From positions 310,001-374,000 of the forward strand of contig JABUFB010000009.1 in the NCBI GenBank assembly GCA_013314775.1: a stretch of 64,000 nucleotides of DNA, read 5' to 3'. The notes below the pieces were generated by a model. The model had not been told where the DNA came from and ran no database searches. It saw only the letters and a list, made by a program, of their open reading frames with translations. The position numbers and the translations under genes are program-made. Positions 19,212 through 56,515 of this stretch are shown in pieces (positions within the stretch are counted from its first letter, which is position 1; the number at the start of each line of letters is the position of its first letter). The stretch is from Armatimonadota bacterium (GTDB taxonomy: Bacteria > Armatimonadota > Zipacnadia > Zipacnadales > JABUFB01).

Positions 19212-20273
19212 CTACCGGCGGCGCTGCGCGGTGATCTCCACCGCCCGCTCAAGCAGGGCGTCGGCGGCATCGGGCGACGGCGCCGAAGTGATGATGAAGA
19301 GGCCTTCAGGACGAAGCTCCCTCACGGCGACTTCCACCTCGTCATAGGCAAGGAGCGCCACCACTCCTTTGCCACCCTCCTGGATGCGCCTGAACAGGTC
19401 CAGCCAGGCAAGGCCGGACTCCGCGCCGCTGCCGGGCGTCCACTGGATCGAGTGAATCCGGGGCATAGAGAGCAGCCGCGGCAGATGCTGCAAAGCGCCG
19501 GGGCCGTCCAGGTGGTAGTTGCAGCCGTCCAGCCAGTCGCACAACTCGTCCAGTTCCGGCGCCACAAACTCCTCGAACTGTGCTGGCGACAGCATGCACG
19601 ACACATCGCTCTGGAGCGTAACGCTCCGGCGCCATGGGCACCACAGGCCCAGCCAGCCACTGGAGCCCTCCTGGTGGTCCAGCATGTCGGCGATGCGATC
19701 GTACATGATATACCAGTTGTCCAGCAGTTTGCGTAGTGACCGCTTGACCTCGGCCGGGTGGTCGATCAGATCCATCAGGAACCGCTGGGTGCCCCGCAGG
19801 AGCGGCAGGTGGTCATTGGGCTGGTGCACGTTGGGCCAGCCGGTCATCCACTTGCCCTTCGAGACCTCTGCGCAGCGTTCCACGACGGCCAGCATGCGTC
19901 TCCAGGCCCAGTCATCTTCGCACAATTCCAGCGCTGGCTCGGGCTCCCAGGAATCGATGATCGGGTCCTGCCAAACGGTCTGCTGGCTGTAGTGCAAAGG
20001 CGCGCCGTACCCGAAGCAGTAGCCCACCATGAGTGAGGTGCCGGGCAGAGATTCCCCCCCGAAGTAGGTGGCCTCGTGTCCGGCGTCGTACCTCTCGGCC
20101 ACGTAATCCGGGTCGGTCCAGTACTCCTGCCAATCCGCTGCGGGCGGGATCGGACGCGCGGGTCTCAAAGGCGCGGTCACTGCGATGCAGGGTCGATCGA
20201 TGATCTGCATGTCCCAGTAGGCGAGGAGGCGTTCGCGGGCTTCCTGCCAGTTTTGTTTGTACGCAAGCTCCAT
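19212..20273 (-). CDS. Uroporphyrinogen-decarboxylase-fold (methyltransferase-like) protein
   Basis: A 353-residue protein of the UroD/methyltransferase TIM-barrel superfamily, closest in style to proteins often named trimethylamine corrinoid protein 2-like. The opening MELAYKQNWQEARERLLAYW and the late strand motif YHLDGPGA (His254, Asp256, Gly257) are the recognisable parts. In corrinoid methyltransferases MtaA/MtbA the matching place holds a zinc-binding H-x-C-G; here the Cys is Asp. I chose the ATG at 20273, preceded by AGGAG eight bases upstream, over ATGs at 20342 and 20321. No signal peptide. Its neighbours are a secreted esterase upstream and a convergent beta-helix gene. Reaction unknown. 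Confidence 0.75.
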   Translation of the reverse strand: MELAYKQNWQEARERLLAYWDMQIIDRPCIAVTAPLRPARPIPPAADWQEYWTDPDYVAERYDAGHEATYFGGESLPGTSLMVGYCFGYGAPLHYSQQTVWQDPIIDSWEPEPALELCEDDWAWRRMLAVVERCAEVSKGKWMTGWPNVHQPNDHLPLLRGTQRFLMDLIDHPAEVKRSLRKLLDNWYIMYDRIADMLDHQEGSSGWLGLWCPWRRSVTLQSDVSCMLSPAQFEEFVAPELDELCDWLDGCNYHLDGPGALQHLPRLLSMPRIHSIQWTPGSGAESGLAWLDLFRRIQEGGKGVVALLAYDEVEVAVRELRPEGLFIITSAPSPDAADALLERAVEITAQRRR

Positions 20274-20338
20274 CGCTCGGCTCCTGAGTGCGTGCTCCGG
20301 AGGCACGGTTTCGTAATGCATGCGGCGCCTGTCCCCCA

Positions 20339-20647
20339 TCACCGCCCCGACAGCTCTTCGCGCTCTCTCAGACGGTTCGCGGCAAGCACGTACGCCCGGA
20401 CGTCGTCAAGCCTCAGCGCGCGGTCCAGCATCAGCAGTTCGTCGGAGGTCAGCGCTGGATCGGGCTTGCCGTGAAGCGATGACTGTTCACCGAATCTGGC
20501 GACGATGATAGTCCCGCACAACCCGCCATCTTGGTCCTCCCGCGCCGTGAGACTGGCGTCCATTACGGTCTTCGGGCACGGGAATGGTTCGCCAATTGGG
20601 GGTCTGTACCTGCCTGGCGGCGGCAGTAGAACTTCCAGCGTCGGACT
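20339..20647 (-). pseudogene. Open frame of 102 codons continuing directly after the esterase stop, probable gene remnant
   Basis: Immediately after the TGA of the esterase gene (20648-20650) the same frame stays open for 102 codons to a stop at 20339. The first possible ATG is internal at 20563 and has no ribosome site. The end of the frame, with SDELLMLDRALRLDDVRAY, resembles the C-terminal LamG/concanavalin-like tail of the beta-helix protein encoded at 29870-32338 (AEVLIFNRSLRFDETEAV). I read it as the decayed 3' end of a secreted LamG-type gene or a rare C-terminal extension. It occupies most of the 374-base gap at 20274-20647; the rest shows nothing. Confidence 0.35.
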
Positions 20648-21568
20648 TCATTGAAGGGCCTGCCGGTAGAACTCCCAGTTGCTGTCCCCCAGACCATCGC
20701 GCACCTTCAGAGTGTCGTGCCCCACTCCGGGCACCACCGTGAAGCTGTGGGCAATGCGCAGATAATCCAGGTGCTCGTGAAACGCCAGGTTCGCCGGCAA
20801 CGTCTCGTCCAGTTCGCCGATCGCGAGCCTGAAGAGGATCTTGCCACGCACGGCGTCTGCATTTCGCTCGGCCAGGACCCACGGACTCACCTCGGTGAAG
20901 TAGTCGTGGTCACCGCCAAAGACAGCCTCGAGAAGGGTTTCGCGCTGGTGTTCGGTGATGCGAGGCCCATGATCGAGGACCCGCTGCATGGGTCCCGCAC
21001 CCATGGCCGAGACCGCGCAGAACAGTTCCGGGTACTTCAGACCGAAGCGTGCGGCGCCATAGCCACCCATGCTGAAGCCCTCGACGATCCGACGGTCGCG
21101 GGAGGCAATGGTGCGGTATGTGGCGTCGATGTGCGGTATGAGTTCCTTGATTAGAATCGTCTCCAGGGGCACAGTGCCGTCCTTCCAATCCACCCACATG
21201 CCCAGTGGGAGACCATTGGGGAAGACGACGATTGCCGGGGGCATCTTCCCTTCCAGCATGGCGGCCCGGAAGTGCTCGGACATCGGCCGGATGCACCCCA
21301 TCGGTCCGCCGCTGCCATGGAGCCAGTAGAGGACGGGGAACCTCCGTTCCGGTTCAACCTCATACCCTGGCGGCTTCAGCACAAAGTAGCTCACCGGTGA
21401 TCCAGCCGCTTCGCTCTGGAGCATTCCCTTCTCAACTCCCGGCGCCTGCACGTCGGGGACCACCCACCTGGGGGAGCGCATCCACTGGTCCGTCAGCGTC
21501 TGGCCGAAACCAGTCTCCAGCAGACACAGGGCCAGGGTCAGCGAAACAACGAGTGTGAACAGTCGCAT
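20648..21568 (-). CDS. Secreted alpha/beta-hydrolase esterase (CE1/esterase D type)
   Basis: A 306-residue protein with a signal peptide (about 1-22, ETGFGQ). The catalytic triad is readable: Ser166 in GFSMGGYG, Asp254 in GELDETLP and His284 in GVGHDT, and YWLHGSGG (81-88) forms the oxyanion strand. This is the pattern of the putative-esterase family that includes feruloyl and acetyl-xylan esterases, so removal of acyl groups from plant polysaccharides outside the cytoplasm is likely. The start follows GAGAGG by about nine bases. It lies 78 bases upstream of the AraC stop, on the same strand, and is followed in frame by a decayed extension. Confidence 0.85.
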   Translation of the reverse strand: MRLFTLVVSLTLALCLLETGFGQTLTDQWMRSPRWVVPDVQAPGVEKGMLQSEAAGSPVSYFVLKPPGYEVEPERRFPVLYWLHGSGGPMGCIRPMSEHFRAAMLEGKMPPAIVVFPNGLPLGMWVDWKDGTVPLETILIKELIPHIDATYRTIASRDRRIVEGFSMGGYGAARFGLKYPELFCAVSAMGAGPMQRVLDHGPRITEHQRETLLEAVFGGDHDYFTEVSPWVLAERNADAVRGKILFRLAIGELDETLPANLAFHEHLDYLRIAHSFTVVPGVGHDTLKVRDGLGDSNWEFYRQALQ

Positions 21569-21646
21569 CTGTGATGCCTCTCGTTTACGGCGGGCAGCGC
21601 CACGGTCACGTCCGCTTCCGAGTGACGAGACGACACCTGTGGCGGT

Positions 21647-22474
21647 TCACTCGGGCCCGGTCCAGGCACGCCGGTAGGCGGACGGACTGGCGCCACGTTT
21701 CCGCCTGAAGACGCGGCTGAAGTAGTGCACCGTTGCAAATCCGGTGCGGTCGGCCACCTGGGAGACGGTCAACCGGCCCTCACGCAGCAGTTCGGCAGCG
21801 CGGTCAAGTCGCACATCAATGACATAATCCATTGGGGGCCTTCCACAGACCGCACGGAAGATCTCGGCGAACCGCCGGGGCGACATTCCCGCTTCCCGTG
21901 CCAGTCCCTGGACAGTGAGCGGCTCGTGAAAGTGAAAATGGATATAGCGGCGAACCCGTATGATGGCCTCCTCATGCGCCGACTGCGCTCTTCCCGCAGC
22001 CGCTGCCCCTGCCGAACCCGCCAGCCTGCATACCCGCAGCAGGAACTCCTCCACCAGCAACGAACAGAGCCATTCCCAGCCAGGTTCACGGGCCGAGAAC
22101 TCATCGATGAGCTGACGCAAAGTCTCCATGAGGGCCGGGTCGCGCACGTCGCGCATAATCGCGGGGATGGTGGATAGTGCAAAGGGGATGCGGGCCCCGC
22201 GGCCGATCGAGAAACGCAACTCCCAGAGTTCCGGCTGCGTACCCGCATCGTCACGGGACGCGTGCTCTTCCCCGGGCTGGATCATGTACAGATCACGCGC
22301 CCGGACACCGTACCAGGCGTCTCCGATGCGCACCTGACCCTTTCCGCAGAGTACGTAAACCACCTGCCAGCTGCCGGGGTGCGCGTGCGGCGGGCCGATA
22401 AGCGCGGACGGGACGCAGTAGGAAGTGGCCTTTGTTACCTCAATCGGCGGTCGGGCGATGCGGGAGCCCGACAT
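21647..22474 (-). CDS. AraC-family transcriptional regulator
   Basis: A 275-residue regulator. The N-terminal half is a cupin-type sensor (GSWQVVYVLCGKGQVRIGD, then DLYMIQPGEEHA). The C-terminal 100 residues are the double helix-turn-helix, with LAREAGMSPRRFAEIFR and the second helix set ending VADRTGFATVHYFSRVFRR. It diverges from the Gfo/Idh-DegT-UroD-CE4 operon and therefore probably controls it in response to a sugar or derivative. Two direct repeats in the shared promoter region are a likely binding site. The start at 22474 has only a weak ribosome site. Cytoplasmic, DNA-binding. Confidence 0.92.
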   Translation of the reverse strand: MSGSRIARPPIEVTKATSYCVPSALIGPPHAHPGSWQVVYVLCGKGQVRIGDAWYGVRARDLYMIQPGEEHASRDDAGTQPELWELRFSIGRGARIPFALSTIPAIMRDVRDPALMETLRQLIDEFSAREPGWEWLCSLLVEEFLLRVCRLAGSAGAAAAGRAQSAHEEAIIRVRRYIHFHFHEPLTVQGLAREAGMSPRRFAEIFRAVCGRPPMDYVIDVRLDRAAELLREGRLTVSQVADRTGFATVHYFSRVFRRKRGASPSAYRRAWTGPE

Positions 22475-22488
22475 GGATCACACGCCCT

Positions 22489-22518
22489 TTGTGCAAACTA
22501 TTGGCAGAATTGTGCAAA
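22489..22518. promoter_or_regulatory. Candidate AraC operator: two direct 9-bp repeats 21 bp apart
   Basis: TTGTGCAAA occurs at 22489-22497 and again, same orientation, at 22510-22518. The 21-bp start-to-start distance is two helical turns, the geometry used by AraC-type activators at tandem half-sites. The repeats lie in the 113-base region between the divergent regulator and operon. The downstream copy is placed where it could overlap the -35 of the operon promoter. Confidence 0.65.
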
Positions 22519-22587
22519 GACTCGGGCGTCTATGTATGCCATAGTGAGCGGGAGTGTCAAGCCACTGAATTTCCGGGGGCACGCGCC

Positions 22588-23562
22588 ATGCTCAGAGCCG
22601 CAATCGTCGGCGGGGAAACACACATCGGCGAGATTACCGCTCTCGCGGGGAGCGCAATTCAGGTGGTCGGCTCCTGCGTTCGCCCCGACCAGCGCGAATG
22701 GGCGGAGACCACTTTCGGCGCTCCCGTGTTCGATGCGGTCGACCGGCTGCTTGCGGAAACCGCGCCGGATCTGGTGGCGGTCGCAAATGAGAATGACTTG
22801 AAGGCGAGTGCAGTACTGTCGGCGCTGAGCGCCGGCTGCGATGTCATTGTGGACAAGCCCCTCGCAATCACCGCGGATGAGCAGGCGCAGATCGAGAGAT
22901 TCCTGCGGGCACACCCCGAACGCCGAATGCTCATGCTGCTGACTCTGCGAGGGAACAGCGAGTACGCAGGCCTGCGCGAAGTCGTTCGGTCGAGCAGGAT
23001 CGGTGCCCCAGCATTCGTCGAGGTCCGCATGGCGGTGCAACTCAAGCGCGCCCAGCGCCCGCCGTGGTTTCTGGATGTCAGCCGGTCCGGCGGACTGTTC
23101 CTCGACCTGCTCATCCACGGGCTCGATCAGGTGGAGTGGATCACGGGGCAGCAGATCACCGTGCTAACCGGCGTGACGGGCAACTTGGGTGCGCCGGATG
23201 ATGAGAACCTGCGGGACCATGCTGCTGTTTTCTGCGAGTTGTCCGGCGGCGGAAGCGCACTGGTGGAGGGCCAGCGCATGCTCCCGGGAACCGTGGGCTC
23301 CGACTACCGGGTCACCGTTGCAGGCACAGAAGGCTTCGCGGACTTGCGGCTTGGCAAAGGCGTCACCCTCTCATCGCCGGAAGGAGCCGACATTCCGCTG
23401 CTGAGTCTGCCCCCGGCCCGGTCCGTGGTTGCCGACTGGCTGCAGGCTCCGGACGCCGAGATGTGTCTGGTTCCCCAGTCCGCATCAATTCGGGCCAATC
23501 GTCTGGCCCTTCTCGCTACTCAGTCAGCACTCGAGCACAGGCGTATTCCCGTCGATGCATGA
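22588..23562 (+). CDS. Gfo/Idh/MocA-family NAD(P)-dependent sugar dehydrogenase
   Basis: A 324-residue oxidoreductase. The N-terminal Rossmann fold opens MLRAAIVGG; its glycine loop is unusual (GGETHIG rather than G-x-G-x-x-G). DKP with Lys90 and the later segment GGLFLDLLIHGLDQ are the family catalytic motifs. It would oxidise a ring hydroxyl of a sugar or cyclitol to a keto group, or reduce a keto sugar. I start it at the ATG at 22588 because the Rossmann strand begins there. It is the first gene of the operon and 37 bases before an aminotransferase, a pairing known from amino-sugar and aminocyclitol pathways in which dehydrogenation precedes transamination. Confidence 0.88.
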   Translation: MLRAAIVGGETHIGEITALAGSAIQVVGSCVRPDQREWAETTFGAPVFDAVDRLLAETAPDLVAVANENDLKASAVLSALSAGCDVIVDKPLAITADEQAQIERFLRAHPERRMLMLLTLRGNSEYAGLREVVRSSRIGAPAFVEVRMAVQLKRAQRPPWFLDVSRSGGLFLDLLIHGLDQVEWITGQQITVLTGVTGNLGAPDDENLRDHAAVFCELSGGGSALVEGQRMLPGTVGSDYRVTVAGTEGFADLRLGKGVTLSSPEGADIPLLSLPPARSVVADWLQAPDAEMCLVPQSASIRANRLALLATQSALEHRRIPVDA

Positions 23563-23599
23563 GCCGACAAGCGTCCGGCGCACCCAAGGAGTGTCAGAC

Positions 23600-24841
23600 A
23601 TGTCCATTGACCGTGCCCTTTTCGGATCCGCAGCCGTCGCAAATCTCCGAGGCCAATTGCCCAATCCTTTCCCGCGCATCATGGGGCCCAACGCCATGGC
23701 GTACCTGCAGGAAGTCGTGGACAGCGGTCTCACGAGCGATCTCGTGGGACGTTTCGAGCGCGCCTTCGCAGAGACCCTCGGGGTGAAGCACTGTATCGCC
23801 ACCCCAGGCTGCACTCCCGCCCTGGCGATCCTGGCGGCGGCGTTCCCCTTTGAGCCGGGCGATGAGATCATCGTCAGCCCGATCACAGACTATGGCACAA
23901 TTCAGGGGCTCTTCCGGCAGGGGTTCATCCCGGTCTTCGCCGACACCGCGCCGGGCAGCGTGAACATCAGCGCGGACACCGTGGAAGCGGCCATCACCGA
24001 CCGCACCCGGGCGATCCTGTGCGTACACAAGACCGGAATCATCTGCGACATGGATCCGATCAACGCTCTGGCCGAGCGGCATGGGCTGATCGTGTACGAG
24101 GATGCCTGCCAGGGGGTTCTCAGCACTTACAAGGGGCACCCGGCGGGCACTCTGAGCACGGCCGGCGGGTTCTCCTTCGACTCCGAAAAAACCCTGGGCT
24201 CCGATGTGGGCGGTTGCGTGGTGACCGACGATGACCAGGTCGCCGAGCGCCTGCGTTTCGTGGGACACAGCCGGGGCGGACTGCAGAAACCGGGTTACGG
24301 CCGAATCCACACCGAGCCAGGCTACGCCTTTCGGATGCCCCAGTCCACCGCTGCGATCACCCTGGCACAACTGGAGATTATTCGCGAAAATGTGGCCCGA
24401 CGGGACGAGATGGCGCGACTGCTAACCTGCTTGATCAACGAGATTCCCGGCGTGCGCGCTCTGCCGATCCCCGACTACCAGGAGGTCTACTCCTGCTGGA
24501 TGTTCGGGATTACCCTGGAACCCGGGCAGTTCTCTTGCGACACCGCGAGCTTCGCCGCGCAGCTTGCCGAAGCCGGCATCCCCGGCGCGGGCATGGGGGC
24601 GTACTATCTGATGCCCGAGGCCTGCGTCTTCCTGGACGAGTACGCGCAAGCCCGGCGCTTCCCGTTCTCACAGCCGCCGGCAAGCCGCCGGTATAGCTAC
24701 GGCGCCCACAGCACTCCGGTCGCCGCAGAGTTCCTGCAGCGGTTCATCCGCTGGAGCACTTTCTGCGAGAAATACACCGAGGAGCACTGCAGTATCGCCG
24801 CGCAGATCATCCGAGCGGTTGCAGACGCGAACCGAGCCTGA
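23600..24841 (+). CDS. DegT/DnrJ/EryC1/StrS-family PLP-dependent sugar aminotransferase
   Basis: A 413-residue fold-type I aminotransferase. Lys197 in FDSEKTLGSD is the PLP-binding lysine, Asp168 in VYEDACQG contacts the pyridine ring, and ATPGCTPAL (67-75) is the phosphate-binding loop. Members transfer an amino group, usually from glutamate or glutamine, to a keto sugar or keto-inositol. The ATG at 23600 follows AGGAG by eight bases; upstream in-frame sequence overlaps the dehydrogenase. With the preceding dehydrogenase it forms an apparent oxidation-transamination pair. The acceptor cannot be told from sequence. Confidence 0.9.
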   Translation: MSIDRALFGSAAVANLRGQLPNPFPRIMGPNAMAYLQEVVDSGLTSDLVGRFERAFAETLGVKHCIATPGCTPALAILAAAFPFEPGDEIIVSPITDYGTIQGLFRQGFIPVFADTAPGSVNISADTVEAAITDRTRAILCVHKTGIICDMDPINALAERHGLIVYEDACQGVLSTYKGHPAGTLSTAGGFSFDSEKTLGSDVGGCVVTDDDQVAERLRFVGHSRGGLQKPGYGRIHTEPGYAFRMPQSTAAITLAQLEIIRENVARRDEMARLLTCLINEIPGVRALPIPDYQEVYSCWMFGITLEPGQFSCDTASFAAQLAEAGIPGAGMGAYYLMPEACVFLDEYAQARRFPFSQPPASRRYSYGAHSTPVAAEFLQRFIRWSTFCEKYTEEHCSIAAQIIRAVADANRA

Positions 24842-24853
24842 GGAGCCAGACCC

Positions 24854-25879
24854 ATGACTTCACGCGAACGAGTTCTTGCCGCGCTCCGCCGGGAGATCCC
24901 CGACCGCGTGCCCTGGATAGAGGGCATCGTCAGCGACGAGTTGGCAACGCGTCTGTGCGGCCGGAAGATCGACGTGAACTGGGACATCGCGCCGGACGGG
25001 ACGCCGGTGACATCGGGCGCATATCTCGCCGAACAGCAGAAGATCGTCTGCCGAGCCCTGGGCAAGGACAATATCAACTACAACGCCTTCGCACCGGTAT
25101 ACGCCGGGCGCACCAGCATGCAGGGCGTGGTAATCGTTGGGGAGGGACTCATCCACACCCGGGATGACCTGCAGAAGATGCAGTTTCCGGATATAGATGC
25201 CCCCGGTTTCCTGGACAGTGCGCGGGAGTTCATCGCCCACAAAGAGGATTTCTGCGCCATCGCCTGCATCCGGCTGGGTATCGGCGCGACGCTGATGAGC
25301 ATGGGCCTGGCAGCTTTCTCCTACGCCATGGCCGACGATCCGGACTTGATCGTGGAGATTCTGGAACGCTACGCGGACTGGACAATCCGGCTCGCACCGC
25401 GACTGGCCGAAATCGGCTTCGACCTCTTCTGGGCCTTCGACGACGTAGCCTTCAACAACGGCCCCATGTTCTCGCCGGTATTCTACCGGGAAACGGTTCT
25501 GCCGATACAGCAGCGCGCGGCCGCCGCCCTGGAACTGCCTCTCATCACCCACAGCGACGGGGACATGACCCCGATCCTCGACGACTGGCTGCAGCTCGGG
25601 CAGGCGGCGATCCACCCGATCCAGCCTGACGTGATGGACATCAACGCGGTCAAGGCCAGGTACGGCAATCGGATCTGCCTGGTGGGCAATATCTTTATGG
25701 ACGACCTGGTGCACAAGCAGCCGGCGGACATCCGTCGGCAGGTGTGCGACCGCATCCAGCGCATCGGTGCCGGCGGGGGATACATTATCTCTTCCTCCAA
25801 CAGCTTGACCGCCGACATGAAGGACGAGAACGTGCGCGCCATGGCCGACGCAATCCGGGAGTTCGGCGCATACGGGTAA
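24854..25879 (+). CDS. Uroporphyrinogen-decarboxylase-fold (methyltransferase-like) protein
   Basis: A 341-residue protein starting MTSRERVLAALRREIPDRVP, the standard opening of this UroD-like subfamily. Late in the barrel THSDGDM (His233, Ser234, Asp235, Gly236) occupies the place of the zinc motif H-x-C-G of corrinoid methyltransferases, with Asp in place of Cys. The sequence ends in a glycine-rich GAGGGYIISSSNSL segment typical of the family. It lies 12 bases after the aminotransferase and 37 before the deacetylase-like gene, so it belongs to this operon. True heme-pathway UroD is unlikely in this setting. The reaction is unknown; methyl transfer or a retro-aldol type chemistry on the operon's sugar are possibilities only. 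Confidence 0.8.
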   Translation: MTSRERVLAALRREIPDRVPWIEGIVSDELATRLCGRKIDVNWDIAPDGTPVTSGAYLAEQQKIVCRALGKDNINYNAFAPVYAGRTSMQGVVIVGEGLIHTRDDLQKMQFPDIDAPGFLDSAREFIAHKEDFCAIACIRLGIGATLMSMGLAAFSYAMADDPDLIVEILERYADWTIRLAPRLAEIGFDLFWAFDDVAFNNGPMFSPVFYRETVLPIQQRAAAALELPLITHSDGDMTPILDDWLQLGQAAIHPIQPDVMDINAVKARYGNRICLVGNIFMDDLVHKQPADIRRQVCDRIQRIGAGGGYIISSSNSLTADMKDENVRAMADAIREFGAYG

Positions 25880-25916
25880 CATCGGCGTGGCGACATCCAC
25901 TGGGAGGATCCTGCAC

Positions 25917-26957
25917 ATGCCCCCGAAGACGACGCCCTGTGTCACGCCCTGCACCTGGCTCTATGACGCGCCCTTCGCGTATTCCATGACCTACGACGAG
26001 GGCACCGTCGACGCCCTGGCCAATGCACTGCCAATCCACGAGAAGTTCGGATTCCCCGGCCACGTGGACGTGGTTGCCGGGCAACTCGGCCGGCAGCGGA
26101 AGGCTTACGGCAGTTCCCTCAACGCATACGTGCACATGAGCGCGGACGAGTTGCGCTTCCTCCTGGACAAAGGCTGGGGCGTGGGCAATCACTCATGGTC
26201 TCACTACGTCTACCCGCTGCAGCCGGGGCTAGACCTCTGGCGCGAGATCGTCTGGAGCAAGTATCGTCTCGAAGACGCCCTGGACCACCCGGTGCGCATC
26301 TTCACGCTGCCGAATGACAAGTACAATTACGCGCCGGTCATCGACCTCGTGAAGCAGCACTATCTCGCCTGCGCGTACATCGATGGCGCGCCTAACCGCG
26401 AGAATTTCGACCTGCACAAGATCGGCAACTTCATGGTGGCATCGGGCGAGATCCATTCAGCGTATGACTGGAAGCGCGAATTGCTCACCCACAACCTGGA
26501 TCTGGGATTCCTGCTGGGATCATGGCTGTATGAAACCTCGCATCTGGTGATGTGGGATGTGCCGCAAGCGCACAAGTGCATCACGCCGGAAGACCTCACG
26601 CGGCGTTTTGAGAAGCTGCGGGAGATCTCGGGAGGGGCGCTGTGGGCTGCAAAACCCGACGATGTGGTGGACTACGTTCTTCTGCGGAGGGCATTGACCG
26701 TGGAGGTGATCGAGGCGGCTGAGCGAAGCCTGACTTTCGAACTGCGGGGGGACTGGCCGGTGGGCGTGATCAGCAGTCGCTTGAGCTTCCGCGTGTCGGG
26801 TCTGCCGGCGTCGAGAGAGTGCGCGGTGTCCCTCCAGCCATCTCCGCTGCCCGGCGGTGCTCTGCGGTCACAGGTCTACGGGTGCGAAAAGCGGGGCAGG
26901 GACTTCATCGTGACCCTGGACGCGGTTCCGGGAGTGAAGGTGACAGTGAGAGTCTGA
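25917..26957 (+). CDS. Polysaccharide deacetylase-like (CE4) protein
   Basis: A 346-residue protein with a CE4/NodB-like catalytic core. SMTYDEGT (residues 23-30) stands for the usual T-F-D-D-G, giving Asp27 as base and Glu28 in the place of the metal-binding Asp; GNHSWSH (90-96) gives metal ligands His92 and His96. A beta-rich C-terminal domain of about 85 residues follows. CE4 enzymes remove N- or O-acetyl groups from sugars. I prefer the ATG at 25917, nine bases after GGGAGG, to a GTG at 25887. No signal peptide is seen, so a cytoplasmic small substrate fits better than a wall polymer. Last gene of the operon. Confidence 0.78.
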   Translation: MPPKTTPCVTPCTWLYDAPFAYSMTYDEGTVDALANALPIHEKFGFPGHVDVVAGQLGRQRKAYGSSLNAYVHMSADELRFLLDKGWGVGNHSWSHYVYPLQPGLDLWREIVWSKYRLEDALDHPVRIFTLPNDKYNYAPVIDLVKQHYLACAYIDGAPNRENFDLHKIGNFMVASGEIHSAYDWKRELLTHNLDLGFLLGSWLYETSHLVMWDVPQAHKCITPEDLTRRFEKLREISGGALWAAKPDDVVDYVLLRRALTVEVIEAAERSLTFELRGDWPVGVISSRLSFRVSGLPASRECAVSLQPSPLPGGALRSQVYGCEKRGRDFIVTLDAVPGVKVTVRV

Positions 26958-26979
26958 TCGCCGTTGAGCCCGAACAAGA

Positions 26980-27019
26980 CCGCCCGCCCGGAGTCTGGTT
27001 TGACTCGCCGGGCGGGCGG
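26980..27019. terminator. Strong bidirectional terminator hairpin
   Basis: CCGCCCGCCCGG (26980-26991) is perfectly complementary to CCGGGCGGGCGG (27008-27019), and GAGTC/GACTC extend the stem inward around a short loop with one bulged base. It lies in the 86-base gap between two convergent genes. There is no T tract, so it may act as a mRNA-end barrier or need Rho, but the stem is the strongest in the window. Confidence 0.75.
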
Positions 27020-27043
27020 CATTGTCTGTGACGCCACTTCAGG

Positions 27044-28369
27044 CTACCAGGTCACGCTCTTGAAGGTGGGCAGATGAGGCTTGTTCTTCTTGAGCATGGC
27101 CTTGACCATGTCCTTGATCTCCTGCAGACCGAGCACCGCCGAGCAGAGCGGGTCGTAACAGCAGGCCTGGTAGACCAGTTCGGGATTGCCGGTCAGTGCG
27201 GCTTCCACAGCCATCTCTTCCACTGCAACGCTTTGAGCGACCATGGGCTGTACGCTCTGGGGAAGAGCTCCCACGTGGACAGGATTCAGGCTATTGCGGG
27301 AGGCGAAAACGGGCACCTCCACGCAGCAGCGGTCGGGTAGATTGGTGATGATCCCGGTGTTCGGCACATTCCCGTTGAACTGGAAGATCTCACCACCCAT
27401 CCAGGCATTGATGATGGACGCGGCGTACTCATGCCCGCGGCTGAGATTGAGCGGCTCGGGGTTTTCCAGCCACGCGATGATGTCCTTCTTCCAGTCCTTC
27501 TCTCGCTTGAGGTAGTGCTTGAGGATGTACGCATGCTCGCCCGGGTTCCATCCCGTGCCATCCTTGCAGAACTTTTCGATGAGGTCGGGGCGCTTGCGGA
27601 ACCATGCGTTGTATTCGGAATTGTGGCCACTGGATTCGGTGACATAGTATCCGAAGGCCAGGAACATCTCATTGCGCACCTGCTCGTGCATGTATATTTC
27701 CTTCTTTTTCATGGCCTTGCGCAGGTCCGGATAGATGTCCCGGCCCTTGTGCTCGAGCTTGAGAAAGAAGGACAGGTGGTTGATGCCCGCGCAGACATAG
27801 TCCAGTTCTGCCGGCGGGACTTTCGCCCAGTTGGCAAGCATCGCCGCGGTGCCCTGGACCGAGTGGCACAGGCCGCTGACGGCAACCTTCGTCTCGCGCT
27901 GCATGGCCCGGCAGAGCATGGCCATGGGGTTGGTGTAGTTGAGCATGACCGCGCGGGGGCAGAGCTCTTCCATGTCCTTGGCAATGCTCACCATTACGGG
28001 GATAGTGCGCAGAGCACGGAAGATCCCGGCGACGCTGCGGGTATCGCCCACGTTCATATCCACGCCGTACTTCATGGGGATCTCGATATCGTGCCGCCAG
28101 ACCTGCACGCCGCCCGCGAGAATGGTGACGAGCACGGCATCGGCTCCGTCCAGTGCCTCGCGTCGATCCATGGTGGATGTCACAGTGGCCGGGTACTTGC
28201 CTTCGTCCACGATCCGCTGCACCGCGCGGGTGCTGTACTCGAGACGCTCAGGGTCGATGTCCATGAGCGCGAGTTCCGCGTTCTCCAGCAGCGGGAATGT
28301 GAGAATGTCTTTGACCAACGTACGCGTGAAACCAAAACTCCCGGCCCCGATGAAGGCGATCTTCGGCAT
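27044..28369 (-). CDS. Glycoside hydrolase family 4 (alpha-galactosidase/alpha-glucosidase/galacturonidase type)
   Basis: A 441-residue GH4 enzyme. The NAD-binding loop IGAGSFGF starts at residue 7, MDIDP (36-40) binds the adenosine ribose, NYTNPMA (144-150) and GLCHSVQG (166-173, with Cys168-His169) hold the divalent metal with His198 in [10 protein letters not shown]4 enzymes use NAD and Mn2+ in an oxidation-elimination mechanism to cleave alpha-glycosides in the cytoplasm. The C-H-S form of the metal motif is seen in AglA/MelA-type and alpha-galacturonidase members; I cannot choose between them. The ATG at 28369 follows GGAGGT and begins the Rossmann fold. It is 175 bases after the UroD-fold gene upstream. 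Confidence 0.92.
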
Positions 28370-28544
28370 CAGACAGACCTCCGGTGTGATTGAGCTCGCG
28401 GCGAGAGGCGACCCTCCCGGCCCGCGAACGATAGCCGCGCGGTGTGAGCACTGGCACAGGCAGTGGACGATTGCGGCTGCAGCCAGCACCATACACCAAG
28501 CGGGCCGCAGAGTCCAACCTGACCTGAAGTCCAAATATCCGGCG

Positions 28545-29609
28545 CTAACCGTACTGTCCGTGTTCCAGCGCCAGGTCCATCCACAGGCAGTATGAGTCGT
28601 AACTGATGGTCGGCGGGACGGAATGGTCGGACTGGTGGATGTACCCGCCGCCGACTTTCGCCGTCTCGATCTTGCTCACCACCTCGTGCTCGATGAGGGC
28701 ACGGTCCCCGGTGGCGAGGATATCCATGTTGATATTGCCGAAGAAGCTGATGCGGTCGCCGTAAAGCGGCTTGAGTTCCCGGACATCGTTCCCCTGCCGG
28801 GCTTCGAGCGGCTCGATGCAGTCGAACCCGGCCTCGATCAGCAGGGGGATGAACTGGCGTACGTCACCGTCGCAGTGGAGGATCAGGAACATGTCGTTCT
28901 CATGGCAAAGGCGGGCGTATTCCCTGTGGTAGTCCATCATCAGCGCCCGGTAGCTCGCCGGAGAGAAGAGCATCCCGCCGCGGTAGCACAGGTCTGAGGA
29001 GAAAAGAATGCCGTCAGGTCGGTAGCCTTCTGACAGCAATTGCCGGGTCATCTGCAGAGCCAATGTCGCCTGGGCCTCGAGCATTTCCGCGAACAGATCG
29101 GGATCCATGCCCAGGGTGAGCAGCGCGTTCTCCATCCCGAGGGTGCTGATTGTCCACCAGACCGGCTCGCCGGGGCTGATGGTGCAGAAGGTCCCGGCGT
29201 CCGCGTAGGCCTGGATCGCCTGCCGCACGCCGTCACTGATGCGCGCCGGATCGGGGGCCAGCCGTTCGCGGTAACGCTCCCAGTCGGCACGGGTCTTGAT
29301 CAGGAAGTCCACCTCGCAGGGCGTCCCATACCGGGTCTTCCAGCTCTTGTGTGCCACGCCGTCGGAGTCGCGCTCGATGATCCAGTCGTCGCTCTCGTCC
29401 ACGGTTTCCTTCGGCAGGCGAAGGCTGTTGTCCAGGCCGACGTTGGCGAAACCGTCGAGATCGAACAGTTCGTGGGGCGACTTGTCCGCGGGCATTCCTT
29501 CCTGCCGCCAGCGTGCAAGGGTGTCAGGCCAGTAGGACTGCTCGCAACGCGGAACGCGGTCGGGTTCCTGTCGGCGGAGGGCAGTGCGGATGCGTTCTCG
29601 TGAGGTCAT
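28545..29609 (-). CDS. Uroporphyrinogen-decarboxylase-fold (methyltransferase-like) protein
   Basis: A 354-residue protein with the same opening as the 24854 gene ([20 protein letters not shown]). The zinc-site region reads LHCDGDV with His245, Cys246, Asp247 and Gly248, so the conserved Cys of MtaA/MtbA is again Asp, although a Cys is one place away. SFFGNINMD and [12 protein letters not shown] follow as in the family. I start at 29609 because upstream in-frame sequence runs into the repeat-rich gap and shows no family similarity. It lies upstream of the GH4 gene. Substrate unknown. Confidence 0.8.
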
Positions 29610-29766
29610 GCGGAGCCCCCGGGAAGTGATGGTGGTTATGCGGCACAGGCAATGCGGGCGAGACGGCCGCGCCACGCGAAGGGCGAAGCAACGCGAAAGG
29701 CATGGCCACCCGAAGGACGGTGAGCGGGATGCTCACCTCGTGCGCCCGTCAGGACGCTCGGATCGA

Positions 29767-29860: not shown

Positions 29861-29869
29861 CACAGGGGT

Positions 29870-32338
29870 CTACCCCTTCGGCTCCAGGCCCCATTTCTCG
29901 GTCAGGTAGTTGAGCACTGCTTCGGTCTCGTCGAACCGCAAGGAGCGGTTGAAAATCAAGACCTCGGCCACGTCCCCTCCGAGAGCCTGTCCATTCACCG
30001 CCGACGCCCCCAGCACCGTGACAGTGCTCAGGCTCGCGCCGTCACGCTGCTGGTGGATGAACACCTGCGCAGGCCAGGTTGCCGGCTTGTCTCTGCCCGG
30101 AGCGCCGATCATCCAGTTGGGCAGCACCCATTCCTGCCCTTCGCCGTTGAAGCTGGCGATGATGCGTTGCCAGGACGGCCCGGTCTCCTCCAGTGCCTGG
30201 GACACCACGAACACCGCGAGCGGCCCGGGGGCGCCACCCATATCGGCCACTCGCAGGCTTCCTGTACCGTTCCCGCGCACCACCGGCAGACCGTTGAGGC
30301 CATCCGAGACCAGCTTCACGCTCCCACCGGGCAGCGCAGGAATGGCCACCCGTCCTTCGGGCGATTTGTCGTGCCACGCAGTGACGACGCTGTCGGCGCC
30401 CAATTCAAGCGTATCCCTGTCTGCCGCGTCAAGCCACAGTGCCAGGCCCTGGGTGATCATGGTTTCACTGGTGATCGGCGGGTGCGGGCTGTAGGACAGA
30501 TCGCGCACAGGGGGTTCCGGTGCGTCAGGGTCAGCCCAATCGGCTCCGGCGGTCCACTTCGGGCCACTGAACTCGTATGCGCCCAGGTCAGGCGCGGCTC
30601 CCGTGAATCCGTCGGTGATGCCCTCGATCACGATGCCTGCATCAATCGCGGCTGACCCGGCCACAGGGTAGCCGTCGCGATCCACCGCTCCGGCGGCGTT
30701 GTGGTGCAGTTCAGGCCCCAGCTGGCCCTGCACGAACTGCGCCGCGCTCTTCGGGTCCATCGCCTCGTTCACCAGATTGTTGATGATCCGCGTGCCCTGC
30801 ATGGTGGGGGTGTACGCGGAGTAGCAGAATGTGCCGAAAGGCTCGCGCACCTGCTGGATCGTATTGTTGCAGACCAGGTGGTTTATGGCATCACTGTTCA
30901 GTCGGATGCCGCTGCCCGTGCAGTTCCAGATCAGGTTGTGATGTACGATGAAGTTCTTGTCGAAGTTATCGAGGTAGATGCCCACGGTACTGTGGCCCAG
31001 ATTGTCATGCACCCAGTTGTACGCGATCACCCCGCCTTCACCATCCGTACCCCAGGCATATATCGCGCCGGAATCATTGTTCAGCATGTTGGTATGGAAG
31101 ATGTCGCAATACTCGATTCGAATGCGCTTGCTTCCGTGGTGCTGGACATTGTCGCGCCCGGTGCGGGAGATGGTGCAGTGCGAGACCACCGCGCCCACAG
31201 ATCGCGTGAGGTCCAGGCCGCCGCGGCCGGAACCCACGTAATTGACGTCGCGGATGATGCAGTTGGAAAGCCGGTTGTCCTCGCCCGCCATCTGCAGACC
31301 GGTGGTGGCCGCGCCGTAGATCAGGCAGCGCCGCCATTCGTTGGCCTTCCCGGTAATGACGTTGCGCACCGGCGGCAGCTTCCCCGATTCCCACGCTCGC
31401 ACGTGCTCCGAGTACCGCAGGCGGCAGTCGTCCAGCAGGCAGCCCTGGGCATCAGCCATGTTCACCCCGGCGCCGATGATCTCGAGGCCGCTGATCTCGA
31501 TGTTCGCCAGCTTGCTCAGGTCCGCGGCGTAATCCCGCTGTTTCACTTCGATAGTGTGACCGGAGGGCGCAGAACCATCGGGCAGCCACAGGTAGACAGC
31601 CCCTTTCTCCTCGTCCAGGAACCATTCGCCCGGGCTGTCCAGGCCCGCGAGAGCGCCGAAAAGCAGGTATGGATTGCCCGCCTGGGGCTTGTAGGGGTCT
31701 GAGGTGTGGTACTTGTCTTTCACTTTCTGCTCGGTGGTCACGTCAAACCGGAGCGACTTGCCCGGCTGGTACTCGGTGACCCGGCGCGTCATGCTCACCC
31801 AGCGTGATCCCGGCCAGAAGAGGACCACCGCACCGTTCCAGTCGCCATCAGGCAGGTTGGCGTCGGCCAGTACCTCGTATCCGGTGCCCGGGCCCATGGT
31901 GGCGCGGTTGTATTCCATGAGGCTCCCCGGCGGAGTATTGGGCCACCGTGCCTCGGGCATCATGGTGCCGTCCACGAATAACTGCGTGAACTTCAGATCG
32001 GTGGAGAGCCGGTAGATTCTGCCGTCATGCTGCTCCCAGTGACCCTCAAGCGGATCAGCTCCGGAAAGCGTGACCCTCTGGCCGACCTGGGCGCGGAAAC
32101 AGATTGGTCTGCCCGGTTCGCCTGATCGCGCGGGCTTGAGGACCTCGCGGTAGGTGCCTGCGGCAAGGGTCACGGTGTCTCCCGGCGATGCGACCGCGCA
32201 AGCCTTCGAAAGGGTCTTCCAGGGTGCGGCTTCAGCGCCTGAGCCGTCGTCATTGCCCCTGGGGGAAACAAAGTACTCCGCGGCCAAGGCGTGGGCATAC
32301 GACATCAGAATTGTAAGCGCGACGAAGCGTACGATCAT
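29870..32338 (-). CDS. Secreted right-handed beta-helix protein with C-terminal concanavalin-like domain
   Basis: An 822-residue protein with a signal peptide (about 1-20, AHALAA). EYFVSPRGNDDGSGAEAAPW is the DUF1565-like opening. Residues about 250-520 form a beta-helix with many conserved turns (NCIIRDVNYVGSGRGG, HCTISRTGRDN). The C-terminal 190 residues start LALWLDAADRDTL and end in EVLIFNRSLRFDETEAVLNYL, a concanavalin/LamG-like module found in planctomycete-type surface proteins. Domain order parallels the 13981 protein apart from the last domain. A GTG at 32347 is an alternative start three codons upstream. Likely a polysaccharide lyase/hydrolase or adhesin; catalytic residues cannot be assigned. 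It follows the propeller fusion gene by 35 bases. Confidence 0.84.
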   Translation of the reverse strand: MIVRFVALTILMSYAHALAAEYFVSPRGNDDGSGAEAAPWKTLSKACAVASPGDTVTLAAGTYREVLKPARSGEPGRPICFRAQVGQRVTLSGADPLEGHWEQHDGRIYRLSTDLKFTQLFVDGTMMPEARWPNTPPGSLMEYNRATMGPGTGYEVLADANLPDGDWNGAVVLFWPGSRWVSMTRRVTEYQPGKSLRFDVTTEQKVKDKYHTSDPYKPQAGNPYLLFGALAGLDSPGEWFLDEEKGAVYLWLPDGSAPSGHTIEVKQRDYAADLSKLANIEISGLEIIGAGVNMADAQGCLLDDCRLRYSEHVRAWESGKLPPVRNVITGKANEWRRCLIYGAATTGLQMAGEDNRLSNCIIRDVNYVGSGRGGLDLTRSVGAVVSHCTISRTGRDNVQHHGSKRIRIEYCDIFHTNMLNNDSGAIYAWGTDGEGGVIAYNWVHDNLGHSTVGIYLDNFDKNFIVHHNLIWNCTGSGIRLNSDAINHLVCNNTIQQVREPFGTFCYSAYTPTMQGTRIINNLVNEAMDPKSAAQFVQGQLGPELHHNAAGAVDRDGYPVAGSAAIDAGIVIEGITDGFTGAAPDLGAYEFSGPKWTAGADWADPDAPEPPVRDLSYSPHPPITSETMITQGLALWLDAADRDTLELGADSVVTAWHDKSPEGRVAIPALPGGSVKLVSDGLNGLPVVRGNGTGSLRVADMGGAPGPLAVFVVSQALEETGPSWQRIIASFNGEGQEWVLPNWMIGAPGRDKPATWPAQVFIHQQRDGASLSTVTVLGASAVNGQALGGDVAEVLIFNRSLRFDETEAVLNYLTEKWGLEPKG

Positions 32339-32373
32339 GGTGGGCACCAGCTCTCACGCTCCCGTGACGTCCT

Positions 32374-48399: not shown

Positions 48400-48428
48400 T
48401 TGACAAGGGCATTTTCGTCGTGTATGAA
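48400..48428 (+). promoter_or_regulatory. Near-consensus sigma70 promoter
   Basis: TTGACA at 48400-48405 and TATGAA at 48423-48428 are separated by exactly 17 bases. This is a perfect -35 and a 4-of-6 -10 (TATAAT). Transcription should start near 48435, about 35 bases before the aminotransferase ATG. It is the best promoter I can find in the window. Confidence 0.8.
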
Positions 48429-48445
48429 ACAGTCAGAAACAATCA
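48426..48445 (+). promoter_or_regulatory. Candidate DeoR operator: two tandem 10-bp repeats
   Basis: GAAACAGTCA (48426-48435) is followed directly by GAAACAATCA (48436-48445), nine of ten bases alike. They overlap the -10 and the expected transcription start, so a bound repressor would block the promoter. DeoR-family regulators are known to bind tandem GAAA-type repeats, and such a regulator is the second gene of the operon. Confidence 0.6.
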
Positions 48446-48469
48446 CTAACGCTCAACAAGCGAGATTTC

Positions 48470-50790: not shown

Positions 50791-50815
50791 CCTGTCTCGG
50801 CAAGGAGCCGTCCAA

Positions 50816-51394: not shown

Positions 51395-51418
51395 TGCCTC
51401 CTGCGCAAGTCACGCGAA

Positions 51419-54400: not shown

Positions 54401-54517
54401 CAGGCCCTCGCTGGCAAGCTCAATCACGGTCTCATAGAGCATCCGCGGGTCGAGCCCCATCGCCTCTGCCCGGTCGATGACAGATCCTGTTCTGCACGTC
54501 CCACGTTCGAACTTCAT
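51419..54517 (-). CDS. Large NAD-dependent glutamate dehydrogenase
   Basis: A 1032-residue enzyme, close to the 115-kDa class of NAD-specific glutamate dehydrogenase and shorter than the 1600-residue GDH180 class. The catalytic domain has ARGGVRLIR, GAKGVIVPHPEF and the family motif DEGTAGLMD; the Rossmann part has GANVFFDD and QIKDSSANKGGVT. It deaminates glutamate to 2-oxoglutarate and ammonium with NAD. The N-terminal 400 residues are a regulatory extension. The start has GGGAGGG about eight bases upstream. It diverges from the GntR gene with a 127-base gap between them and ends 24 bases from the convergent GNAT gene. It likely serves nitrogen catabolism. Confidence 0.9.
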   Translation of the reverse strand: MKFERGTCRTGSVIDRAEAMGLDPRMLYETVIELASEGLLTARCVNAAAGVLLTQLGLAEYFFRNISRDALKRVLRAVANNILVREDDEVVLRGEVAEARFDIDGGVQARIATPQSRDRMEAVLDSVMNGNRVEYYFSPESSYYTYIIHPQVPPPLRPGDRPEDLFAFQQDPAVPEDTRRRYIKFLKRCAAAAVPLVEVSSAKPTGETRIMFADDFSHSALPVIRRMMEDLGIVLRRAYWETYRGVTGRLESICSLYLDGKHSATALSKAVANLQSFLAIQTGDLDIMYVSGQLDFQEYLFATAAAAFVHSFIHKGLQTDLHIMNGLARKELRDAFAHRVFESSRSEYTRRWVLDTVRESPDLIKRLFGLFDRKFNPAHRSRPKPSTLRREIEDFRRQAAISFVDNRTGFDIMSFMANLVTHVQKTNFYKREKRSHAFRLDSAILDPLVFPGPVYGLFFVLGFYATATHMRAEDVARGGVRLIRVTPGNYDDELDNMPLLNYALGPVAQRLKHKDIAESGAKGVIVPHPEFPRDGLRCMLDFTEGVMDLTQPCEEVIDYLGKSERVFFGPDEGTAGLMDAVAYRARERGDRHWRTVTTGKSFGIPHDVYGITHDRRVFGLVSRGSAGTELQIEGVPVLTTPDTSLIYREIGDEIDASGMTTMGVMTTLRTVLDHVGLDEAETNLMMTGGPDGDLGANQIQSFKGRICLVIDGGSVLFDPDGLDRQTLMELAFARHTAPRVDTMGYPLELLGPRGFRVPRQAGAVRLPDGTLVPDGAFFHRNFLCNPEVRRYLAEANITAFVPCGGFKDTVNGENVSQFIANFRELKVIVEGANVFFDDTSREHIARETGIVQIKDSSANKGGVTCSAIAEVLSAFLLGEDYEPFLVRNAQTRSGLIRSVLELIAANAVAETRMLLSLHEKTGTPLYSLSIQTSEQLLSLQQLLYQRIEEILRRSSLVREIIARYVPAVLMEHLGPAKVMRILGKPELQAYRNAIVTKKLAAMALYRYASDWDEFLGRLDADFTGELGRLLQE

Positions 54518-54629
54518 GGGTGACCCTCCCTGCAGCTAACGACGACTCGCCGGATCTAACGCCTTCGCTTTGGCGGAAGACAAAGTGGGCGGACGCATGG
54601 AATGAGACTGGACTTCCCAATGCTTTTCG

Positions 54630-54644
54630 TATATTGTATACAGT
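54630..54644 (+). promoter_or_regulatory. Candidate GntR operator and -10 element touching the start codon
   Basis: TGTATACA (54635-54642) is a perfect palindrome of the kind bound by FCD-type GntR regulators. TATATT (54630-54635) overlaps it as a possible -10, with CTGGAC 16 bases upstream as a poor -35. The regulator ATG begins at 54645, two bases after the palindrome, and no ribosome site precedes it, so the message may be leaderless. Confidence 0.55.
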
Positions 54645-55319
54645 ATGCAAAGACCCGGTCAACCTATTCCACGCACATCCCTTGCACAACAGGTCGCGGA
54701 AGCTCTCTTCCAGCGTCTGGTGAACGGAGACCTGCAGCCCGGGGACCACCTGGGCGAGATCGAACTCGCAGAGGAGCTGCAGGTTAGTCGGACACCTGTC
54801 CGGGAAGCAATTCTCCACCTCGCAGCACTCGGCCTCCTGCAGAGGGACACTCATCGGGGCTCCCGGGTGGCGCAACCCTCCGTCCCGGAGCTTGTACAGG
54901 TGTACGAGGTGCGCGAGAGTCTCGAGGGGCTCGCAGCACGGCTTTTCGCGGAACGCGCCGGGCCCATACAGCGCCAGGAGCTGTTCCAGACCCGCCGCGA
55001 ACTAGAGCTTGCGCGTTCCAGGAAAGACGCCCTGGGAGTTCGAGTGCTGGACTTCAATCTGCATCGCCAGATCATTCGCGGTTGCGACAACAGGTACCTT
55101 GGCAGCGCGGGCTATGCGGAATCCCTCATGCTTCTGGCATATCTCGTGCGCGATAGAAGTCTAAGCATCTTGCCGGGTCTCGCGCCGCAACCCCATGATC
55201 CCCACGTTGCCTTGATGGCCGCCATAGAAGCCCACGACGGCGACGAGGCGGAAGCCGCAATGCGCGCCCACATCCGCGGCACCCGCATGATGCTCAGTGC
55301 AGTCATCGATGACCAATAG
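54645..55319 (+). CDS. GntR-family transcriptional regulator (FCD subfamily)
   Basis: A 224-residue regulator. The winged helix-turn-helix is at about residues 12-75 (LAQQVAEALFQRLVNGDLQPG, then LAEELQVSRTPVREAILHL). The all-helical FCD sensor follows (about 80-215), with Asp and His residues such as DFNLHRQIIRGCDN that usually bind a metal and a small carboxylate. It heads a same-strand series of sugar genes and diverges from the glutamate dehydrogenase gene; it may govern either or both, and its own start via the TGTATACA site. The start ATG is the only one in frame at the head of the domain. Confidence 0.93.
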   Translation: MQRPGQPIPRTSLAQQVAEALFQRLVNGDLQPGDHLGEIELAEELQVSRTPVREAILHLAALGLLQRDTHRGSRVAQPSVPELVQVYEVRESLEGLAARLFAERAGPIQRQELFQTRRELELARSRKDALGVRVLDFNLHRQIIRGCDNRYLGSAGYAESLMLLAYLVRDRSLSILPGLAPQPHDPHVALMAAIEAHDGDEAEAAMRAHIRGTRMMLSAVIDDQ

Positions 55320-55378
55320 CGGTCACACTGCCTACAATCCACTATATCCCCGCCCAATCGTCCGCGAGGTCACCCACC

Positions 55379-56515
55379 ATGCCCAAAGCCGAAATGACCG
55401 GAAAGGAACGTCTGATGACTGCCGTCCGACACGAGGAGCCCGACCGGGTGCCCATCTGCCCGCGCATCAACTGGGCGTGGCTGGATCCGGACAAGAGCCA
55501 CAGGCTCGAGGAGCTTTACGCGCCGGTCATCGACCCCATGGAGATCCTCACCGGCACCACCCCCAACTATATCATCACCTACCCCGAGCAGTACGATCTG
55601 CCCGACGTGCGTGTGGACACAACGCGATACCAGGAGGACGAATACCAGGTGGTGGAGCGGGTCTTTCACACGCCTGCCGGCAAGCTCTCGGACCGCACGA
55701 AAATCCCGCCATCAGGCCGGGAATATGGGATGTCGCCGAACCCGATCAAGACCGAGTATCTTGTGAAGAGCCGCGAGGACATTCCTGCGCTGCGGTACAT
55801 TCTGCCGGAGATCGAAGGCAACTACGACCATGCAGTGGCGCGAATGCGAGAACTCGGGGACCGCGGGGTGGTCATGGTCAATGTGTACAGTGAGCTCTGC
55901 CACCAGGCGGGCGATGTGCGGGACATGCAGGACATCATGATGGACTACTACCTCGATCGGCCGTTCTTCGATGAGCTGCTGGGACTGTTCCAGGAGCGCA
56001 CCATGGCCGAGACGAAAGCCGTCATGGAGGCCGGGGTGGAGTGGGTCTTCGCAAACTGCTACTACAACAGCATCTCGGCGGGATGGTCGCCGGCGATCTT
56101 CGAGGAGGTATTCGTACCGCACATCACCGCTCAGGTGGACCTCGTGCACAGCTACGGCGGATATGTGGACTACTATGACGATGGGCACCTGTCGAAGAGC
56201 ATGGGGCTTATCGCGGACTGCGGGGTGGATGTGCTGGAGACGTGTACCCCGCCACCCGTGTGCGATTTCGACCTGCAGGAGGCGAAGGCGACCATCGGGG
56301 AGAAGGTGACACTGAAGGGCTATGTGGACCTGCTCTACGTGGTGAAGCGGGGCACGCCGGAGTTGGTGGAGCAGACTGTGGCGCAAGCGATGGAGATTGC
56401 CAAGCCCGGAGGCGGGTTCATCATCGGCAGCAGCGACAGCTTCCGCGAGGGCACTCCGCCCGAGAATATACACGCATACTTCCAGAGTTGCCTGAAGTAT
56501 GGGGTGTATGACTAG
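55379..56515 (+). CDS. Uroporphyrinogen-decarboxylase-fold (methyltransferase-like) protein
   Basis: A 378-residue member of the UroD-like superfamily (opening MTGKERLMTAVRHEEPDRVP after six residues). The metal-site region reads YYDDGHL (Tyr266, Asp267, Asp268, Gly269, His270) rather than H-x-C-G, the most divergent of the four copies here. LKGYVDLLY and GGGFIIGSSDSF are the usual late barrel strands. It is 59 bases after the GntR gene and 14 bases before the heparinase-like gene, so it is probably part of that operon. Substrate unknown. Confidence 0.8.
   Translation: MPKAEMTGKERLMTAVRHEEPDRVPICPRINWAWLDPDKSHRLEELYAPVIDPMEILTGTTPNYIITYPEQYDLPDVRVDTTRYQEDEYQVVERVFHTPAGKLSDRTKIPPSGREYGMSPNPIKTEYLVKSREDIPALRYILPEIEGNYDHAVARMRELGDRGVVMVNVYSELCHQAGDVRDMQDIMMDYYLDRPFFDELLGLFQERTMAETKAVMEAGVEWVFANCYYNSISAGWSPAIFEEVFVPHITAQVDLVHSYGGYVDYYDDGHLSKSMGLIADCGVDVLETCTPPPVCDFDLQEAKATIGEKVTLKGYVDLLYVVKRGTPELVEQTVAQAMEIAKPGGGFIIGSSDSFREGTPPENIHAYFQSCLKYGVYD

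Follow-up and report, generated by a model that had tools for sequence, protein, structure and literature searches.

Four UroD-fold genes, at positions 19212, 24854, 28545 and 55379 of the window (the whole 64,000-nucleotide stretch of DNA analyzed here, G000:C9:310001-374000 of the 6.12-Mb genome G000), probably encode methyltransferase I (MT I) enzymes. Homology and gene context lead us to favor, with moderate confidence, sugar-related O-demethylases that would share one corrinoid protein (CP) encoded elsewhere in the same genome. The first-pass annotation had noted that the four proteins carry an Asp where MtaA and MtbA have a zinc-binding Cys, and had proposed that they form a set that left corrinoid chemistry for an undescribed reaction on sugars or sugar acids. 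Its observation was confirmed, and its interpretation was partly supported. What makes the case interesting is found beyond the window: across the phylum, UroD proteins form a very large family that is tied to one CP and its activator, RACo.

The open frames and motifs of all four genes were located. The gene at 19212..20342 (minus strand) encodes HLDG at residue 277 and likely starts near 20273 (MELAYKQNW); the gene at 24854..25879 (plus strand) encodes HSDG at residue 233; the gene at 28545..29675 (minus strand) encodes HCDG at residue 267 and likely starts near 29609 (MTSRERI); and the gene at 55379..56515 (plus strand) encodes YDDG at residue 266, so that the His of the motif is also missing. 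The last three products matched the Pfam URO-D family (9.7e-24, 2.5e-13, and 4.5e-17, respectively), and the closest named records to 24854 were metagenome-assembled genomes of Armatimonadota/Candidatus Zipacnadia. The 19212 protein matched no Pfam or NCBIfam family; its own family, with four members in this genome, has no Pfam model. Each of 25 family members has the same H, D, and G in this motif, which is thus more than chance. That 19212 might not be a UroD protein, as the lack of a Pfam match could imply, was ruled out by structure prediction and fold search. The AlphaFold2 model (mean pLDDT, 90.2) found MtaA (4ay7) as its first Foldseek match (E, 7.3e-9), and VIA-align gave a Z score of 18.3 (rmsd 3.5, 295 residues aligned), with MtaA tied with HemE structures. 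The model of 24854 (mean pLDDT, 92.8) behaved likewise (4ay7 first, E, 9.1e-18; Z, 30.5; rmsd 3.4; 319 residues aligned; the same tie), and its HSDG lies directly after strand 230-233. All four proteins thus belong to the UroD superfamily, by Pfam for 24854, 28545, and 55379 and by structural models for 24854 and 19212, and the UroD fold assigned to them by the first-pass annotation held for 19212 as well.

The Pfam family name, together with a Z score against HemE structures (about 30) that ties with the one against MtaA, might suggest that the four are porphyrin decarboxylases (true UroD/HemE). We consider this extremely improbable. The R-Q/E-A-G-R signature, which we take to be the UroD substrate-binding element and which is present in 6w2o, occurred in none of the 78 Pfam-matched UroDs of the genome (19212 lies outside this set), and none of the 9 of these 78 tested reached the hemE cut-off. 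The best Pfam E value in the genome was 1e-65, compared with 1e-120 or better for HemE-like proteins of relatives; since none of its 79 matches scored like HemE, the genome seems to be without HemE.

Next, the position of the Asp was examined. A profile built from 30 Asp-type sequences and compared with solved structures found MtaA 4ay7 on top (6.2e-26), and the H-s-D-G of the Asp set aligned with the H-I-C-G of MtaA, which places the Asp at the zinc-Cys position as had been claimed. In the same alignments the bacterial UroDs 4wsh and 3cyv showed F-T-K-G, that is, Lys rather than Asp at this column. A comparison with human UROD, on the premise of a K-D-G stretch at this column, was dropped, and no claim is made on the human enzyme. 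PF01208 had 79 matches in the genome, representing 78 reading frames. In these 78 frames plus 19212, the Cys column was occupied by Asp in 39 proteins, Cys in 33, His in 3, Glu in 2, Ser in 1, and Thr in 1. The motif classes, taken from a single MAFFT alignment of very divergent proteins, were HxCG (30), HxDG (22), DxDG (10), and others (17). At the column of a further Cys of MtaA, presumably the third zinc ligand, HxCG proteins had Cys in only 4 of 30 and His in 12 of 30; His occupied it in all 10 DxDG proteins, and the 22 HxDG proteins had His (6), Asn (5), or Asp (3) among other residues. These counts make the classical His-Cys-Cys set the exception in this genome. The residue is Asn in 24854, His in 28545, and Asp in 55379.

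In a tree of 104 proteins, at least 14 changes between Cys and Asp were required over 95 C/D rows, and the closest paralogue of 28545 (HCDG) in the genome was an HCCG protein (99% SH-aLRT); the tree was quickly made, its deep branches were weak, and the motif columns were kept in. With such repeated switching and an HCCG protein as the closest paralogue of 28545, Asp is labile here and does not mark a separate group. The four window genes are therefore no special set among the approximately 80 UroD-fold proteins of this genome, contrary to how they had been presented. Asp at this column is a common variant and has been described previously: according to PMC10418091, UroD-superfamily S-methyltransferases bind zinc through His-Cys-Cys, and O-methyltransferases have Glu, Asp, or noncoordinating residues in place of one Cys or of both. 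CdmB is a UroD-superfamily corrinoid methyltransferase without zinc, with MtvB, OdmB, and VdmB as relatives (PMC13222342). It is plausible that zinc binding of the MtaA kind is impossible for the Asp-type proteins.

The 64-kb window contained neither a corrinoid protein nor an activator, as had been reported. The genome contains a single PF02607 protein, a stand-alone CP of 221 aa at approximately 41 kb on G000:C9, which matched TIGR02370 (methyltransferase cognate corrinoid protein) at 219.1 bits (cut-off, 215.3). Adjoining it is a RACo of 633 aa with all four RACo domains. Both genes lie on the minus strand of piece L063, CP at 11058-11720 and RACo at 11770-13668. Four further PF02310 matches lie in longer open frames (458 to 558 aa). 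The single methyltransferase II (MT II) candidate is a PF00809 protein of 281 aa at C2:36520; a second PF00809 match in the genome was much stronger (1.5e-88). On another contig (C8), an MttB-family protein (PF06253, 4e-31; L055:8075-9544), a member of another kind of corrinoid methyltransferase, lies near two UroDs.

Operons in related genomes link Asp-type UroDs with CP or RACo. Twenty stretches around RACo or CP were chosen for having RACo, CP, or UroD on the same contig or few UroDs in the genome. An Asp-type UroD accompanied CP or RACo in 8 of them (L155 to L161 and L164), a proportion that, given how the stretches were chosen, is no frequency. In L158, CP, a homocysteine methyltransferase, a DCDG UroD, a DUF1638 protein, an HTDG UroD, an HICG UroD, and RACo are all encoded on one strand. 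L156 and L157 contain CP, MtaB, a DCDG UroD, RACo, and an HTDG UroD that is 71% identical to an HTDG protein of our genome (C11_27436). In L155, a pectate-lyase-like gene overlaps the CP gene and is accompanied by MtaB, an HLDG member of the 19212 family (33% identity to 19212 over 354 columns; E, 3e-56), a homocysteine methyltransferase, and DUF1638. L204, from a set of 40 loci retrieved for the 19212 family, begins with CP, MtaB, an alpha-L-fucosidase (PF01120, 5.5e-106), an HVDG member of the 19212 family, HSDG and HTDG UroDs, and a Gfo/Idh protein, and continues with HLCG and HCCG UroDs, a homocysteine methyltransferase, a DCDG UroD, and part of another; its genes lie on one strand and many overlap. 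The CP of our genome shares 50 to 60% identity with the CPs of L155 to L161 and L204. Along its length, the 28545 protein shares 33 to 36% identity with the HTDG/HSDG UroDs of L158, L159, and L161, and a starred clade of 22 rows in the 104-protein tree unites it with them. The best operonic matches of 24854 were 27 to 37% identical and often partial.

DUF1638 proteins recurred in the CP-UroD-RACo clusters L155, L158, L159, L161, and L164. Two other observations concern corrinoid proteins of relatives. In L166:6692-9449 and L167:6579-9355 (genomes G009 and G118), a second, different CP precedes two MtaA-like Cys-type UroDs; the PF02607 search found no counterpart of this CP type in our genome. 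In L214, L215, and L216 (G041, G028, and G014), a CmuA-like frame of 586 to 606 aa fuses a UroD (HICG) with a corrinoid domain.

Because several CP clusters contain a homocysteine S-methyltransferase (PF02574), and our genome contains no other PF02607 protein, CP-RACo might be a split methionine synthase, with the UroDs sharing only a cobalamin-using lifestyle. Against this, full-length MetH is also present in several RACo genomes (for example, G077, G096, and G112), and in L155, L156, and L204 UroD genes overlap genes of the CP cluster or directly adjoin them. We regard a split methionine synthase as quite improbable.

To relate RACo to UroD number across genomes, UroD matches were counted; since at most about 15 to 18 candidates were scored per genome, these counts are floors. 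Among 121 Armatimonadota genomes, RACo was found in 81 of the 82 that have at least three UroD matches and in 1 of the other 39 (Fisher P = 4e-29, a value that ignores kinship). The two exceptions were G089, which has 10 UroDs but in which no RACo was found, and G112, which has RACo and one UroD. Families f12, f16, f24, and f25 each held both states and were concordant except for G112 in f12, and f21 was discordant through G089 only. RACo could instead serve only the CFeSP of the Wood-Ljungdahl pathway. Strong matches to CFeSP (PF03599; threshold, E below 1e-90) occurred in 23 of the 121 genomes, all with RACo in at least two copies; our genome has none, and the 59 RACo genomes without CFeSP have one RACo each, except G072. 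With the CFeSP genomes left out, RACo was present in 58 of the 59 genomes that have at least three UroDs and in 1 of the other 39, so that the link holds in the remaining 98 genomes and this explanation was ruled out. In 99 Planctomycetota genomes, RACo was present in 13 of 16 with at least three UroDs and in 12 of 83 with fewer. Orthologues of 24854 were found in 10 genomes, and all 10 have RACo.

These results suggest that the corrinoid connection differs among the four genes. The first-pass annotation had tied its reading to the absence of a co-occurring CP gene; such a gene accompanies 19212 and 28545 through both the genome and their families, whose relatives lie in CP operons. The link of 24854 is by co-occurrence only, and 55379 has none beyond homology.

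Several observations weigh against a shared CP. The UroDs of our genome are dispersed and unlinked to CP: the pieces around the 78 UroDs contained no CP save at the lone CP-RACo locus, and the 19-kb piece around that locus gave no UroD match. CP was found at none of the 10 loci of 24854 orthologues on the pieces examined and in only one of the 40 loci of the 19212 family (L204); an MT II homologue was likewise found on the piece at 1 of the 40. Operonic UroDs were only 16 to 30% identical to 55379 over the longer aligned stretches, and no close operonic relative of it was found. Cys-type UroDs are also present in L158 to L161, L164, and L204, where the Asp-type proteins might thus be accessory; Asp-type UroDs stand alone only in L155, L156, and L157, where the MtaB beside them is a possible methyl donor enzyme. 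The missing RACo of G089 has parallels in the Planctomycetota genomes G177, G197, and G209, in which RACo was likewise not found and the number of UroDs ranges from 5 to 18 or more; these may use another activator or none. Finally, the co-occurrence of RACo and UroD could reflect an anaerobic lifestyle.

The gene neighborhoods bear on the proposal that Asp-type UroDs left corrinoid chemistry for an undescribed conversion of sugars or sugar acids in which Asp would act as acid/base. A Gfo/Idh/MocA oxidoreductase (22432..23562, plus strand) lies upstream of 24854, followed by a DegT/DnrJ aminotransferase (23429..24841, plus strand) 12 bp upstream of it, and a polysaccharide deacetylase-like gene (25887..26957, plus strand) begins 7 bp downstream; the resulting array is Gfo/Idh-DegT-UroD-deacetylase-like. 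A GH4 glycosidase gene (27044..28534, minus strand; Glyco_hydro_4, 8.5e-54) lies 10 bp downstream of 28545, and a beta-helix protein gene (29870..32347, minus strand) lies upstream. The 55379 gene is preceded by a GntR/FCD regulator gene (54645..55319, plus strand) and followed after 11 bp by a heparinase II/III-like gene (56527..58449, plus strand). The sugar link drawn earlier was thus borne out by these GH4, Gfo/Idh, heparinase-like, and beta-helix neighbors and by the fucosidase of a relative's operon. The only common partners found around the 78 UroDs of the genome were further UroDs, with 7 genes near 7 of them, and genes of the Gfo/Idh-like kind, with 7 near 6. A 423-aa family without a Pfam or NCBIfam match (L081:11921-13189, contig C8), perhaps another UroD-like family, has 3 members near 4 UroDs.

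The close packing of the UroD genes with GH4, Gfo/Idh, DegT, and heparinase-like neighbors fits a corrinoid-free role, as do the retention of Gfo/Idh and DegT each beside 24854 in 4 of 10 loci and the lack of CP beside the UroDs of our genome and at all 10 loci of 24854 orthologues. However, Asp-type relatives of two of the four (19212 and 28545) lie in CP operons, Cys and Asp flip at least 14 times, also within one subfamily, and all 10 genomes with 24854 have RACo. With carboxylate replacement described in PMC10418091, and with CP and RACo in the same genome, the claim that Asp implies an exit from corrinoid chemistry was not supported. We judge a corrinoid-free role unlikely, albeit less so than the split methionine synthase.

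On the preferred reading, that of MT I enzymes sharing one CP, we infer methyl transfer by these proteins, the sharing itself, an O-methyl sugar substrate, and the part played by a metal. Each MT I would bind a methylated, probably O-methylated, sugar-related compound, and the pocket at the end of the strand with H/D/Y-x-D/C-G would hold or orient the leaving heteroatom. Asp would stand in place of the thiolate of the S-type enzymes, whether or not a metal is bound. The methyl group would pass to the Co(I) corrinoid of the shared CP on G000:C9, kept active by the adjacent RACo, and then to tetrahydrofolate, perhaps via the single MtgA/AcsE-like pterin-binding protein at C2:36520; homocysteine, as in relatives, may be an alternative sink. 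The sugar genes of the window, the fucosidase of L204, and the pectate-lyase-like gene of L155 point to O-methylated sugars or uronates as our best guess for the substrates. More tentatively, and as a possibility that we rate at less than even odds, approximately 80 dispersed UroDs might each be tuned to its own O-methylated sugar or uronate released when polysaccharides are broken down, as spokes around one CP and one RACo, with metal ligands that vary freely (H-C-H, H-D-N, H-D-H, D-D-H, and others), in Armatimonadota and some Planctomycetota.

If this is true, anaerobes that eat methylated glycans would have a corrinoid route for taking methyl groups off the sugars, which would give them a new anaerobic way into such glycans, and one carrier protein would serve a very large set of MT I paralogues. 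The Cys/Asp swaps within one genome provide a test set for relating ligand type to S-, O-, and other methyl donors, and they warn against reading Asp in place of the Cys as a loss of corrinoid chemistry. In the open-licence PMC literature, nothing was found on corrinoid demethylation of sugars or polysaccharides, nor on UroD in Armatimonadota or on UroD expansions or paralogues. The words methyltransferase, corrinoid, and uroporphyrinogen are absent from the main text of the Zipacnadia paper (PMC10290634).

Among known systems, MtaA/MtbA (4ay7) share the fold, and the x-D-G of the window proteins aligns with their zinc H-x-C-G. The window proteins differ in having Asp for Cys and a replaced third zinc Cys; all four have H/Y-x-D-G and none the His-Cys-Cys site, and coenzyme M use is not indicated. 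The three Pfam-matched proteins scored 62.7, 36.0, and 40.9 bits against TIGR01463 (cut-off, 235.4), and 19212 did not match. UroD-superfamily O-methyltransferases are alike in having carboxylates at the metal site (PMC10418091). The O-demethylase and chloromethane MT I proteins MtvB, OdmB, VdmB, and CdmB are alike in superfamily, in their pairing with CP and a reductive activator, and in that some are zinc free (PMC13222342); the sequence match to CdmB (9rui) was weak (E, 0.0063). Unlike those systems, the one described here has dispersed genes, one CP for approximately 80 paralogues, and a sugar-gene context. In CmuA, UroD and corrinoid domains work together, as in the fusions of L214 to L216, whereas the window proteins have no corrinoid domain and the fusions of relatives are of the HICG type. 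Type 1 mlp gene clusters, according to PMC10418091, also combine several UroD-type methyltransferases with a CP and an activator in each cluster; the mlp proteins are His-Cys-Cys and linked to sulfur or selenium, whereas those described here are mostly not His-Cys-Cys and are linked to sugars.

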